Positions 13,378 through 64,000 of a stretch of 64,000 bases of DNA are shown piece after piece; position 1 is the first letter of the stretch; each line of letters begins with the position of its first letter. The stretch comes from Polaribacter butkevichii (GTDB lineage: Bacteria > Bacteroidota > Bacteroidia > Flavobacteriales > Flavobacteriaceae). The translations under genes were made by a program, and so were the position numbers. The DNA is taken from contig NZ_CP150661.1 in the NCBI RefSeq assembly GCF_038024105.1, positions 1,879,001 to 1,943,000 of the forward strand, read 5' to 3'. Under the pieces are notes generated by a model that was not told the origin of the DNA, made no database searches, and was given only the letters and a program-made list of their open reading frames with translations.

Positions 13378-13429
13378 GGGATAAAAATACGTGAATTTGA
13401 ATTAATTATTACTGGTCTTTCTAAAATGT

Positions 13430-13500
13430 TTAGCCCTGATTGAAACGGCATCCTTTTTACTTTTTCTGTAAAAAGATATAGTGGAAAGCAGGAAATAGCT
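13430..13500. repeat. Dispersed intergenic repeat, family A, copy 1
   Basis: TAGCCCTGATTGAA at one end and AGCAGGAAATAGCT at the other enclose a hairpin core (CATCCTTTTTA / TAAAAAGATAT). The same ends and core, inverted, occur at 23533-23624; part of the core also recurs at 50542-50658. Confidence 0.7.
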
Positions 13501-34438: not shown

Positions 34439-35965
34439 ATGAGCACTTCAAAAACAATTAAATCCGCATTAATTTCGGTATTTCACAAAGACGGTCTAGA
34501 ACCAGTTGTAAAAAAATTAAATGAATTGAATGTAACCATCTATTCTACAGGTGGAACAGAGAAATTTATTAAAGATTTAGGAATCAACGTAATTCCGGTA
34601 GACGAGGTTACCTCTTACCCATCTATACTTGGTGGTAGAGTTAAAACATTGCATCCAAAAGTTTTTGGAGGAATTCTAAACAGACAAGACAACGAAAGCG
34701 ATGTTGCAGAGTTAGCAGAATATAATATTCCACAAATAGATTTAGTAATTGTAGATTTATATCCATTTGAAAAAACAGTTGCTTCTGGAGCATCTGAACA
34801 AGATATTGTTGAAAAAATTGATATTGGAGGAATCTCTTTAATAAGAGCTGCTGCAAAGAATTTTAAAGATACTTTTATTGTTTCTTCTATGGATCAATAT
34901 GATGGCTTTTTAAACATTATTTCAGAAAACAACGGAGAAACAACAATTTCTCAAAGAAAGAAATTTGCTGCAAAAGCATTTAATATTTCTTCTCATTATG
35001 ACACTGCTATCTTTAACTATTTTAACGAAGATGAAATCGTTTATAAAGCAAGTGAACAAAACTCTAATGTTTTACGTTACGGAGAAAACCCTCATCAAAA
35101 AGGATATTTCTTTGGAGATTTAGATGCTATGTTTGATAAACTACATGGTAAAGAATTAAGCTACAACAATCTATTAGATGTTGATGCTGCCGTAAATTTA
35201 ATTGGAGAATTTAAAGGAGAAGCACCAACTTTTGCAATTTTAAAACACAATAATGCTTGTGGTTTTGCACAAAGAGAAACCTTAAAACAAGCTTACGTAG
35301 ATGCTTTAGCAGGAGACCCTGTTTCTGCTTTTGGTGGTGTTTTAATTGCAAATACAGAAATAGATAAAGAAACAGCAGAAGAAATTCATTCTTTATTTTG
35401 CGAAGTTGTAATTGCACCTTCTTTTTCTGAAGAGGCTTTAACTATTTTAAAAGGAAAGAAAAATAGAATTATTTTAATTCAGAAAGACACTGCATTACCT
35501 ACTACAACTGTAAGAACTTGTTTAAATGGTTCTTTAGTTCAGGATAAAGATAGTATTACAGACAAATTAGCAGATTTAAAGTACGTTACTAACAATAAAC
35601 CAACTCAAAATGAGTTAGATGATTTGTTATTTGCTTCTAAATTGTGTAAAAACACAAAATCGAACACTATAATACTTGTAAAAAACAAGCAATTATTAGC
35701 AGGAGGAACAGGACAAACAAGTAGAGTTGATGCTTTAAACCAAGCTATTGAAAAAGCAAATTCTTTTAAATTAGATTTAAACGGATCTGTAATGGCAAGT
35801 GATGCTTTTTTCCCTTTTCCTGATTGTGTAGAAATTGCAGATAAAGCAGGTATAAAAAGTGTTATTCAACCTGGTGGATCTATCAAAGACCAATTAAGTA
35901 TCGATTATTGTAATGAGCATAATTTATCTATGGTTATGACAGGAACAAGACATTTTAAACATTAA
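34439..35965 (+). CDS. purH: Bifunctional AICAR transformylase / IMP cyclohydrolase
   Basis: Carries out the last two steps of IMP synthesis. 508 residues: N-terminal MGS-like cyclohydrolase domain (about 1-190, STGGTEKFIKDLGI, GRVKTLHPKVFGGIL) and C-terminal AICAR transformylase domain with LKHNNACGFA (Lys-His active pair), DPVSAFGGVL and SDAFFPFPD. Length fits the family. It appears to be a single-gene unit; mreB has a separate promoter. Confidence 0.97.
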   Translation: MSTSKTIKSALISVFHKDGLEPVVKKLNELNVTIYSTGGTEKFIKDLGINVIPVDEVTSYPSILGGRVKTLHPKVFGGILNRQDNESDVAELAEYNIPQIDLVIVDLYPFEKTVASGASEQDIVEKIDIGGISLIRAAAKNFKDTFIVSSMDQYDGFLNIISENNGETTISQRKKFAAKAFNISSHYDTAIFNYFNEDEIVYKASEQNSNVLRYGENPHQKGYFFGDLDAMFDKLHGKELSYNNLLDVDAAVNLIGEFKGEAPTFAILKHNNACGFAQRETLKQAYVDALAGDPVSAFGGVLIANTEIDKETAEEIHSLFCEVVIAPSFSEEALTILKGKKNRIILIQKDTALPTTTVRTCLNGSLVQDKDSITDKLADLKYVTNNKPTQNELDDLLFASKLCKNTKSNTIILVKNKQLLAGGTGQTSRVDALNQAIEKANSFKLDLNGSVMASDAFFPFPDCVEIADKAGIKSVIQPGGSIKDQLSIDYCNEHNLSMVMTGTRHFKH

Positions 35966-60589: not shown

Positions 60590-62053
60590 ATGGGAAAAAT
60601 AACAGGATTTAAAGAATTTGAAAGACAAGATGAAGCCTATACTTCTGTAAAAGATCGTGTAAAAAATTATAAGGAATTTACGGTTCCTCTTTCTGAAGAC
60701 GAAATAACAAAACAAGGTTCACGTTGCATGGATTGTGGTATTCCTTTTTGCCATAGTGGTTGTCCATTAGGAAATCTAATACCAGATTTCAATCATATGG
60801 TACACCAAGGAGAATGGAAAAAAGCTTCATGGATATTACATTCTACAAACAATTTTCCAGAATTTACAGGTCGTTTATGCCCTGCCCCATGTGAACAAGC
60901 ATGTGTATTAGGTATTATAGAAGATCCAATTTCTATTGAAAACATAGAAAAAAACATTGTAGAACGTGCCTTTAAAGAAGGTTGGATTAAACCTCAACCG
61001 CCAAAAAATAGAACAGGAAAAACAATTGCTATTGTTGGTTCTGGACCAGCAGGTTTAGCAACAGCACAACAATTAAACAGAGCTGGTCATACAGTTACTG
61101 TTTTTGAAAGAGATGATGAAGTTGGTGGTTTATTACGCTACGGAATCCCTAACTTTAAGTTAGAAAAAGGAATCATAGACAGAAGAATTGCCATCTTAGA
61201 AGCAGAAGGAATTACATTTAAAACCAACGTAAACGTAGGTGTTAATTACGATGTAAAAGACCTAAAAGCTTTTGATAGTATTGTTTTATGTGGTGGATCT
61301 ACAGAAAGACGTAGCTTACCAACTCCAGGTATCGATGCTGATGGAGTTGTACAAGCAATGGATTTTTTAACACAACAAACAAAAGTAGTACTTGGTAAAG
61401 AAGTAAAAGAGCGAGTACTTGCTACCGACAAAAACGTAATTGTTATTGGTGGTGGAGATACAGGTTCAGATTGTATTGGTACTTCAAACAGACACGGAGC
61501 AAAATCTGTTGTTAACTTTGAAATTATGCCAAAACCTCCAGGACACCGTTCACCTACAACTCCTTGGCCTTTTTGGCCATTACAATTAAAAACCTCTTCT
61601 TCTCATAAAGAAGGTGTAGAACGTAATTGGTTAATCAACACAAAGGAATTTGTAAAAGATGAAAACGGAAAATTAATTGCCTTAAAAACAATTAATGTAG
61701 AATGGAAAATGGTTCCAGGAGAAAGACCACAATTAATTGAAATTGCAGGTACAGAAAAAACTTGGCCATGTGACTTAGCTTTATTAGCACTAGGTTTTAC
61801 AGGTCCAGAAAGTACTTTAGCAGACAAATTAGGTCTTAAAACAGACGCTCGCTCTAACTACAAAGCGGAATACGGAAAATATCAAACAAACGTAAAAAAC
61901 ATTTTTACTGCCGGAGATATGCGTCGTGGACAATCTTTAATTGTATGGGCAATATCAGAAGGTAGAGAAGCTGCCAGACAAGTAGATTTATTCTTGATGG
62001 GTAAAACAGAATTACCTACCAAAGATGCTTCTGGCGATTTAGTAGCTATGTAA
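60590..62053 (+). CDS. gltD: Glutamate synthase, small subunit
   Basis: 487 residues. N-terminal two 4Fe-4S cluster cysteines in CMDCGIPFCHSGCPLGN and RLCPAPCEQACVLG; FAD site in IAIVGSGPAGLATAQQL (about 146-162); NADPH site in VIVIGGGDTGSDCIG. Passes electrons from NADPH to the large subunit. Translationally close to gltB and closed by a clear terminator. Confidence 0.98.
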   Translation: MGKITGFKEFERQDEAYTSVKDRVKNYKEFTVPLSEDEITKQGSRCMDCGIPFCHSGCPLGNLIPDFNHMVHQGEWKKASWILHSTNNFPEFTGRLCPAPCEQACVLGIIEDPISIENIEKNIVERAFKEGWIKPQPPKNRTGKTIAIVGSGPAGLATAQQLNRAGHTVTVFERDDEVGGLLRYGIPNFKLEKGIIDRRIAILEAEGITFKTNVNVGVNYDVKDLKAFDSIVLCGGSTERRSLPTPGIDADGVVQAMDFLTQQTKVVLGKEVKERVLATDKNVIVIGGGDTGSDCIGTSNRHGAKSVVNFEIMPKPPGHRSPTTPWPFWPLQLKTSSSHKEGVERNWLINTKEFVKDENGKLIALKTINVEWKMVPGERPQLIEIAGTEKTWPCDLALLALGFTGPESTLADKLGLKTDARSNYKAEYGKYQTNVKNIFTAGDMRRGQSLIVWAISEGREAARQVDLFLMGKTELPTKDASGDLVAM

Positions 62054-62074
62054 GAATCTAAAAATATATTTTAT

Positions 62075-62108
62075 AAAAAGGCATCAGTATTAACTGATGC
62101 CTTTTTTG
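62075..62108 (+). terminator. Terminator after gltD
   Basis: A perfect 14-bp stem (62075-62088 with 62093-62106) ending in T-run. Confidence 0.88.
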
Positions 62109-62131
62109 TGTTTATAGAAACTATTTTTTTA

Positions 62132-62257
62132 GGGCGTGCCCATTTTTAAAAAACACAATTTATAAACATTAAAATATCGCTTAAAAATGGTCAGGCTATC
62201 CATTACAAGTCCTCGTTCGTACCTCACTGTGGGCTTTTCATTTCTATCCTTCACGCA
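62132..62257. repeat. Dispersed intergenic repeat, GGGCGT type, copy 3
   Basis: Begins GGGCGTGCCC, contains GGTCAGGCTATCC and CCTCACTGTGGGCTTTTC, and ends TATCCTTCACGCA. Start and end correspond to 12148-12276 and 50513-50674. GC-richer than its surroundings; no coding potential. Confidence 0.6.
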
Positions 62258-62413
62258 AAAAAAGTTAACATAAAAAAACCTTCTACAAGATCCAAATTAT
62301 CCTTATAAAAACAATTTACTTAACAAAACAATCATCAATTTAAATACTCACTAAAAAGCTTTTAAACAAAGCAATTAGTCCTAATTTTAAATAGCACAAA
62401 AAAATAAAGACAT

Positions 62414-62520
62414 AAAAAAAAGCGTCCCGTTTCAGGGAAGCTTTCCATTGGTTAACAAAACCACGACGCTTTTACTAAAGCGCCAAAACAACACAACTAA
62501 TGCTGCCCTAACAAAAAGCA
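62414..62520 (-). ncRNA. Probable small RNA, family not identified
   Basis: On the minus strand a nearly ideal promoter (62526-62556) is followed by about 105 bases with several hairpins and no ORF. Hairpin 1 is GCTGC/GCAGC (near 62503-62523), hairpin 2 is CGCTTT/AAAGCG (about 62466-62483, partly shared with the terminator stem), and the 3' end is a branched structure closed by GACGCTTTT-like pairing (62465-62473 with 62418-62426), enclosing TGGTT/AACCA, and followed by a run of eight U. No gene lies downstream within reach, since gltD is on the other strand. A 6S-like or other Flavobacteria RNA is possible; I could not match it to a family. Confidence 0.6.
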
Positions 62521-62525
62521 GCCGA

Positions 62526-62556
62526 CAAATATACGATGTTTTTAAATATTCTCAAA
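62526..62556 (-). promoter_or_regulatory. Promoter of the small RNA
   Basis: Minus strand: TTTG (62553-62556), 19-base spacer, TATATTTG (62526-62533). This is the full Bacteroidota consensus with the best fit in the window. Confidence 0.75.
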
Positions 62557-62609
62557 TAAAGATGTTGTTTTTTATTTTATTCTCAATTGTCTATTAATTC
62601 ATTTGATTG

Positions 62610-62617
62610 TATCTTTG
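62610..62617 (+). promoter_or_regulatory. Promoter -7 box for lysS
   Basis: TATCTTTG matches TAnnTTTG, 35 bases before the ATG; TTG at 62587-62589 is 20 bp upstream. Divergent from the small RNA promoter. Confidence 0.7.
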
Positions 62618-62652
62618 CAATCTTAAATAAACATCAGAAAACTAAACAGCAA

Positions 62653-64000
62653 ATGCAATTATCAGAACAAGAAGTTGTACGTAGAGAAAAGCTCGTAAAA
62701 TTACGCGCTTTAGGCATCAATCCTTATCCTGCAGATTTATATCCTATAGATTCAAATTCGGCAAAGATAAAGCAAGAGTATGCTGAAGGAAAAAAGGTAA
62801 TTATTGCTGGTAGACTAATGTCTATTAACATACAAGGAAAAGCTTCTTTTGCACAACTGCAAGATGGAGAAGGTAGAATACAAGTGTATTTTAACCGTGA
62901 TGAAATTTGTATTGGTGAGGATAAAACGTTGTACAATGATGTTTTTAAAAAATTACTAGATTTAGGTGATTTTGTTGGTATAGAAGGGGAATTGTTTACT
63001 ACTAAAGTAGGCGAAAAAACAGTGCGTGTTAAGAACTTTACATTGTTAAGTAAGTCTTTAAAACCATTGCCTTTACCAAAAGTAAAAGACGGTGTTACTT
63101 ATGATGCTTTTACAGATCCTGAATTACGTTACAGACAACGTTATGCAGATTTAGTGGTAAACCCACACGTAAAGGAAGTATTTATAAAAAGAACTAAATT
63201 GTTTAACGCAATGCGTTCTTTCTTTAATGATGCTGGTTATTTTGAAGTTGAAACTCCGGTTTTACAACCAATTCCTGGAGGTGCAGCAGCAAGACCTTTT
63301 ATAACACATCATAACTCATTAGACATTCCATTATACATGAGAATTGCTAATGAATTGTATTTAAAAAGATTAATTGTTGGTGGTTTTGATGGTGTGTATG
63401 AATTTTCTAAAAACTTTAGAAATGAAGGAATGGACAGAACTCATAACCCTGAATTTACAGCCATGGAAATCTATGTATCTTACAAAGATTACAATTGGAT
63501 GATGGATTTTGCTGAGCAACTTTTAGAGCATTGTGCTATTGCTGTAAACGGAACTTCTGAAGCTACTTTTGGTGAACACAAAATAGACTTTAAAGCGCCT
63601 TATGCAAGAGTAACAATGGCAGATTCTATTAAACATTTTACTGGTTTTGATATTACAGGTAAAACAGAAGCTGAAATTAGAGAAGCTGCTAAAGGCATGA
63701 ATATTCCTGTGGATGAAACAATGGGAAAAGGAAAATTAATTGATGAGATTTTTGGTGAGAAATGTGAAGGAAACTACATTCAGCCAACTTTTATTACCGA
63801 TTATCCTAAAGAAATGTCTCCGCTTTGTAAAGAACATAGAGACAACCCAGAGTTAACAGAGCGTTTTGAGTTAATGGTTTGTGGTAAAGAAATTGCCAAT
63901 GCATATTCTGAATTAAATGACCCAATTGACCAACGTGAGCGTTTTGAGCATCAATTAAAATTAGCTCAAAAAGGAGATGATGAAGCAACTGAGTTTATTG
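62653..64000 (+). CDS. lysS: Lysyl-tRNA synthetase, 3' end missing
   Basis: Class II aminoacyl-tRNA synthetase. The frame runs open from ATG 62653 to the right edge (449 residues seen; family length in this group is about 560). N-terminal OB-fold anticodon-binding domain (about 40-150, IIAGRLMSINIQGKASFAQLQDG with key residues G-R-G-A-F); motif 1 near FNDAGYFEVETPVL; motif 2 FRNEGMDRTHNPEFTAMEIY; the usual LysRS beginning RREKLVKLRALGINPYP. Motif 3 lies beyond the window. Confidence 0.97.
   Translation, partial: MQLSEQEVVRREKLVKLRALGINPYPADLYPIDSNSAKIKQEYAEGKKVIIAGRLMSINIQGKASFAQLQDGEGRIQVYFNRDEICIGEDKTLYNDVFKKLLDLGDFVGIEGELFTTKVGEKTVRVKNFTLLSKSLKPLPLPKVKDGVTYDAFTDPELRYRQRYADLVVNPHVKEVFIKRTKLFNAMRSFFNDAGYFEVETPVLQPIPGGAAARPFITHHNSLDIPLYMRIANELYLKRLIVGGFDGVYEFSKNFRNEGMDRTHNPEFTAMEIYVSYKDYNWMMDFAEQLLEHCAIAVNGTSEATFGEHKIDFKAPYARVTMADSIKHFTGFDITGKTEAEIREAAKGMNIPVDETMGKGKLIDEIFGEKCEGNYIQPTFITDYPKEMSPLCKEHRDNPELTERFELMVCGKEIANAYSELNDPIDQRERFEHQLKLAQKGDDEATEFI

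Follow-up and report, generated by a model that had tools for sequence, protein, structure and literature searches.

The stretch analysed here, hereafter the window, comprises 64,000 nucleotides of Polaribacter butkevichii (contig NZ_CP150661.1, positions 1,879,001 to 1,943,000), and on its minus strand, between gltD and lysS and divergent from lysS, lies the gene of a small RNA (sRNA) of about 111 nt. On comparative evidence this is a strongly conserved sRNA characteristic of Flavobacteriaceae, present in most of the genomes sampled, and the alignments show it to form a structured RNA family with massive covariation and a conserved open motif. The elements of the locus are as follows.

62553..62556, minus strand: -33 element TTTG of a Bacteroidota-type promoter, read from the sequence and often kept in relatives with the lysS arrangement
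62526..62533, minus strand: -7 element TATATTTG, with columns invariant or at least 90% conserved in 29 aligned sequences
62414..62524, minus strand: small RNA of about 111 nt with a putative 5′ end, delimited from sequence, alignments and covariance models
62502..62522, minus strand: 5′ hairpin H1, variable in sequence with pairing kept, including pairs with changes on both sides
62485..62500, minus strand: unpaired segment UUAGUUGUGUUGUUUU, the proposed seed, containing the motif GUUGUGUUG at 62497-62489
62465..62484, minus strand: hairpin H2, free in sequence, with 8 of 8 pairs changed on both sides and 95.4% of cells paired
62450..62462, minus strand: hairpin H3 (GGUU..AACC), with 97.3% of cells paired and 2 of 4 pairs changed on both sides
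62414..62449, minus strand: conserved AAUGGAAAGC and terminator hairpin H4 (62444-62419) with its U-tail, from the family alignment

A promoter made of TTTG, a 19-nt spacer and TATATTTG on the minus strand had been proposed in a sequence-only reading of this DNA, and its coordinates were confirmed, as was the terminator ending in eight U, which corresponds to the eight-T run at 62421-62414 that forms the RNA 3′ end. The same reading had noted no open frame, and indeed no open reading frame (ORF) of at least 60 aa covers the RNA; promoter, terminator and lack of such an ORF together define an independent transcription unit by sequence. The Bacteroidota-type -7 box is also kept in the lysS-type relatives. 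A sigma-70 scan of 62000-62800 returned three promoter-like sites against 3.4 expected by chance, one of them overlapping the RNA promoter, and a terminator scan returned three sites against 0.3 by chance, namely H1, H2 and the gltD terminator. H4 was not among these sites because its stem contains a mismatch. The strong terminator-like hairpin behind gltD lies at 62075-62106 on the plus strand, opposite to the strand of the RNA.

Structure and covariation

The earlier count of three hairpins and a terminator is better given as four hairpins in all, H1 to H3 and the terminator H4. The minus-strand fold reaches -38.6 kcal/mol against -27.1 +/- 3.2 for 200 shuffled sequences (z -3.6), which is lower than all 200; in this single-sequence fold H1 and H2 are partly joined, but they stand apart in the covarying structure. 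Covariance models were built in steps from 15 (R1), 73 (R2) and 87 (R3) sequences, and the family alignment was rebuilt with these models because MAFFT misaligned H2. Among 86 distinct sequences, 96.6% of the pair cells are paired and 14 of 21 pairs (326 cells) are changed on both sides, counts that are inflated by the fitting of this alignment to the structure. Its covariation score is 0.490; shuffles give 0.163 and slid partners no more than 0.126. None of 500 shuffles matched the true alignment on any of the five measures. The genus alignment A1, which holds 29 sequences aligned by sequence alone, has 8 of 31 predicted pairs changed on both sides.

Conservation of sequence is concentrated outside the variable helices. 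In the unpaired segment UUAGUUGUGUUGUUU the GUGUUG columns are conserved in 86 or 87 of 87 sequences, and in the CCAAUG ahead of the terminator the UG is present in 87/87 and its A in 83/87. A near-invariant open segment held between variable hairpins looks like a seed.

Distribution in Flavobacteriaceae

A BLAST search with a 161-bp stretch (E < 1e-9) gave a match in 54 of the 58 genomes of the same GTDB genus, P. butkevichii included, and the four without a match are only 53-82% complete. Named relatives among the matches listed include Polaribacter, Tenacibaculum, Lutibacter, Aureivirga, Kordia and others. With model R2 at E <= 0.01, the RNA was found in 319 of 397 Flavobacteriaceae genomes and in 205 of 237 genera. 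When 20 of the 78 negative family genomes were rescanned with R3, 15 matched; reading of the places in these 20 genomes left 12 that carry the motif, with G108 doubtful and G153 and G158 spurious, and three further G183 matches as well as the G057 match were likewise judged spurious. In the probable genus Flavobacterium, the RNA is present in 383 of 398 genomes and in 329 of the 333 good ones; the good genomes without an R2 or R3 match are G940, G951, G861 and G1088. Most genomes of the family and probable Flavobacterium samples show one match. The P. butkevichii genome likewise has one R2 match and no second full-length copy, the next best similarity being 49 nt at E 0.004.

An order-wide sample scanned with R3 matched in 21 of 21 Flavobacteriaceae genomes, and in 7 of 127 genomes of other families the matches, read in part, are weak (best 38.1 bits). 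R2 at E <= 0.01 gave matches outside the family in 17 of 127 genomes of the order sample and 7 of 133 of the phylum sample, all at 37.4 bits or less. Those that were read (12 order regions and the loci L245 and L247-L252) proved to be mainly a fit of the terminator, mostly behind protein genes, and the motif GUUGUGUUG occurs in none of the 12 order regions and 7 loci. Two further candidates were also rejected, one in Eubacteriaceae (L114), taken to be a chance match to the pattern, and one in a metagenome-assembled genome of Gracilibacteria (L085), taken to be a contamination. On these models, the RNA does not credibly occur in the samples from outside Flavobacteriaceae.

Two genomic settings

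The RNA gene stands in one of two settings. In the lysS setting, seen in the window, Polaribacter, Tenacibaculum and Lutibacter, it has its own promoter and is divergent from lysS. Among 191 loci collected by a simple motif search, to which some genomes contribute several times, the RNA lies within 1.5 kb of the lysS start in 162 and is divergent every time; these loci, together with the covarying helices, bear out the conservation and covariation upstream of lysS on which the sequence-only reading had staked its proposal. In the tRNA setting, found for example in Flavobacterium and Kordia, it lies behind tRNA-Asp(GTC), typically at about 60 nt (about 25 to 130), and a terminator-like hairpin usually stands between the two, in the place of H1. 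This arrangement was seen in 10 of 19 loci with weaker hits and in all 26 probable Flavobacterium loci examined (25 genomes), where the tRNA is close upstream; no tRNA was found in the eight lysS-type loci scanned. In Lutibacter, of the lysS type, and likewise in one tRNA-type genome, the RNA has a convergent DUF456 gene as its neighbour, which suggests that the two settings derive from one rearranged locus.

Some copies adjoin truncated or interrupted tRNA-Asp ends or stand in tandem (loci L215, L237, L301, L313 and L316), and one genome, G269, has three. The pattern suggests that integration or recombination takes place at the tRNA-Asp/sRNA locus.

Control of lysS in cis was considered and rejected, since the RNA is divergent from the gene and ACACAAC occurs in 0 of 121 lysS leaders. 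The comparative data support the earlier view of an independent RNA without a cis target.

Predicted targets of the open segment

Candidate targets were ranked by the duplex energy of the seed against 1283 ORF starts (ORFs called by length) in 2.06 Mb, half of the P. butkevichii genome. Of 25 E. coli reference genes for nucleotide and one-carbon metabolism sought in the same 2.06 Mb, 7 were found and 18 were not. An 18-nt seed scored over -60..+15 ranked purD 1, purH 3, purA 9, glyA 14, carB 15, purN 307 and pyrG 461, and a 14-nt core scored over -50..+15 ranked purD 1, purH and purA tied at 2, carB 6 and glyA 7. The names of these last five were confirmed with NCBIfam. One of them lies in the window:

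34439..35962, plus strand: purH, predicted target, whose leader CUUAACAACACAACACUAA right before the ATG complements the seed (NCBIfam; seed rank 2 of 1283)

With 96 shuffled seeds, five of the seven genes never reached the top 15 together; the maximum was three, seen in 4 of the shuffles. When three other regions of the RNA were used in place of the seed, none of the seven ranked that high. The sequence AACACAAC occurs within 50 nt of the start in seven genes of this genome, four of which encode CarB, PurD, PurH and PurA. As a control, 17 E. coli genes were taken, of which 3 were too short; of the other 14, the 2.06 Mb yielded 3, at ranks 940, 1100 and 1231, and 0.4 Mb of a probable F. johnsoniae genome yielded 1, at rank 288 of 373. 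In that same 0.4 Mb, folD ranked 13, carA 17 and carB 65 of 373 ORFs (p 0.006), and the prs leader of another genus contains ACACAACACAC. Nine Bacteroidales leaders (three of purH and two each of purA, purD and glyA) gave -4.8 to -11.9 versus -14.7 to -17.0 here, and ACACAAC is present in none of them, in strains where the RNA itself was not searched for. The site is also absent from 12 leaders of viral contigs of unspecified hosts, taken from scans for purH, purA, glyA, purD and carB, two of which lack a start codon; this result weighs on neither side.

That said, a number of observations weigh against these targets. The 14-nt core placed pyrG at rank 480 and purN (28% identity) at rank 1181 of 1283, and if the ranks of all seven genes are averaged, 10 of the 96 shuffles equal the true seed. 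The target class emerged only on inspection of the results, and the second ranking used another seed length and window than the first, so that the p values are post hoc; the test stretches set beforehand in two relatives contained none of the predicted target genes. An early excess of ACACAAC k-mers at gene starts was weak and did not recur in a second 0.8 Mb (4 versus a mean of 3.5), AACACAAC is near the start in 0 of 355 genes of the probable F. johnsoniae stretch, and guaA of L145, from a further genus, has no site. The site is not conserved in hpt-adk leaders (n=16, median percentile 48), nor in aspartate aminotransferase leaders, of which 1 of 5 reaches the best 5%; for adk, with 4 of 6 in that range, it overlaps the apparent end of the hpt frame. 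We consider the predicted class of purine, one-carbon and carbamoyl-phosphate synthesis to stand at about even odds, and the link of the RNA to nucleotide synthesis to be suggestive but unproven.

A proposed mechanism and its rivals

The reading we favour, with a probability of roughly 0.55, is a trans-acting sRNA that would pair, without Hfq, with C/A-rich leaders of mRNAs that serve purine, one-carbon and carbamoyl-phosphate synthesis; that the RNA is transcribed, that it pairs, which way it acts and which class it targets are what we infer from sequence. Here the RNA would be transcribed from its own Bacteroidota-type promoter, and in other genera its position would place it at the tail of a tRNA-Asp transcript. 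The 5′ hairpin, H2 and H3 would flank the open segment GUUGUGUUG, which would then pair with C/A-rich leaders AACAACACAAC just 5′ of the start codons of the predicted target mRNAs purD, purH, purA, glyA and carB, in the manner of GcvB R1, most likely blocking and possibly enhancing translation.

The C/A-rich leaders of purD, purH and purA might instead be a DNA operator or a translation enhancer of a nucleotide regulon, the fit to the seed being coincidental. The shuffled G/U seeds that lift up to three genes into the top 15, and those that equal the true seed on mean rank, speak for such a coincidence, whereas only the true seed lifts five, and the purD and purH sites, judged by eye, follow the -7 box and precede the ATG and hence lie within the transcript; we regard this explanation as unlikely, if worth keeping in view. 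Slightly less probable, in our judgement, is an RNA whose open motif, H3 and AAUGRAAAGC form a recognition surface for a protein that it titrates or guides, with mRNA pairing secondary. Several motifs outside H2 are near-invariant in 87 members, more than a short seed needs, and the single match in most genomes resembles a housekeeping RNA; against this, each RNA holds one motif copy without sponge-like repetition, the seed selects a coherent gene class, and neither Hfq nor an RRM_1 protein was found in the P. butkevichii genome, though the RRM_1 control was detected in Bacteroides ihuae. It is very improbable that the RNA is a side product of the tRNA-Asp transcript, or an element in its processing, with no trans regulatory role: the consistent position behind tRNA-Asp in probable Flavobacterium and the tRNA-Asp remnants beside some copies (L215, L237) would fit, but the lysS type carries a promoter of its own, shows no tRNA in the loci scanned, and keeps the motif, H2, H3 and the terminator.

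The RNA could also be the homologue of Rfp18, a trans-acting sRNA of Flavobacterium psychrophilum for which pairing of the third stem-loop with metalloprotease mRNAs is predicted; deletion of Rfp18, as published, lowers the products or levels of two of these mRNAs (PMC9723704). The presence of the RNA studied here in nearly all good genomes of probable Flavobacterium agrees with this identity, while Rfp11, Rfp13 and Rfp15 are likewise named as conserved (PMC9723704), and an F. psychrophilum 16S primer matched 0 of 28 genomes probed; we hold the homology for possible, at somewhat less than an even chance.

If the trans-acting reading holds, the RNA may tune nucleotide synthesis by pairing with mRNAs, which is a concrete and easily tested prediction. 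A bolder form, which we put forward tentatively and would not expect to hold in full, is that a single core sRNA bearing a GcvB-type seed controls, independently of Hfq, de novo purine, one-carbon and carbamoyl-phosphate synthesis across Flavobacteriaceae, that in many genera co-transcription with tRNA-Asp ties nucleotide synthesis to tRNA-Asp output, and that the RNA acquired its own promoter in the lysS-type lineages. Nucleotide synthesis is a large consumer of aspartate (PurA, PurC, PyrB). In either form, one gene would open the way to studying post-transcriptional control in these bacteria, with no Hfq found in the one genome tested.

Comparison with known RNA families

No Rfam 15 threshold was reached at the locus, where the matches are weak, and a scan of 10 relatives returned tRNAs only. 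The sequence-only reading had considered membership in 6S-Flavo, Flavo-1 or the signal recognition particle (SRP) RNA, and none of these holds: 6S-Flavo (RF01685) and Flavo-1 (RF01705), both structured RNAs of Bacteroidota, have no match at the RNA locus, and the bacterial SRP RNA model does not reach its threshold there. Flavo-1 does match elsewhere in the window, at 13428-13499 on the plus strand (72.4 bits). The Bacteroides sRNA BTnc231 (RF04180; 19.1 bits, gathering score 80.4) and the Bacteroidota sRNA FopS (RF04319; 15.5 bits, gathering score 56) align weakly, and the confident part of both fits is the terminator. This is a real, uncatalogued RNA family, itself a new family of a known kind, the trans-acting sRNA; although most sampled genomes of a large environmental family carry it, it is absent from Rfam 15 and so goes unannotated. 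No paper on a flavobacterial sRNA linked to tRNA-Asp was found in the open-licence literature, and the likeness to Rfp18 and the other Rfp RNAs, as conserved structured sRNAs of Flavobacterium, was drawn by description only (PMC9723704).

The closest parallel to the seed is GcvB of E. coli (RF00022), which contains an identical GUUGUGUUGUU, once, at nt 72. This is the open R1 seed of GcvB, whose targets are C/A-rich near their start codons. In other respects the two differ: GcvB is 206 nt long versus about 111 nt here, Rfam scans up to E 10 gave no GcvB match at the locus, and this genome has no detected Hfq. GcvB targets are amino-acid transporters, whereas those predicted here are nucleotide genes. 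The flavobacterial RNA may have arrived at a GcvB-like seed by convergence.
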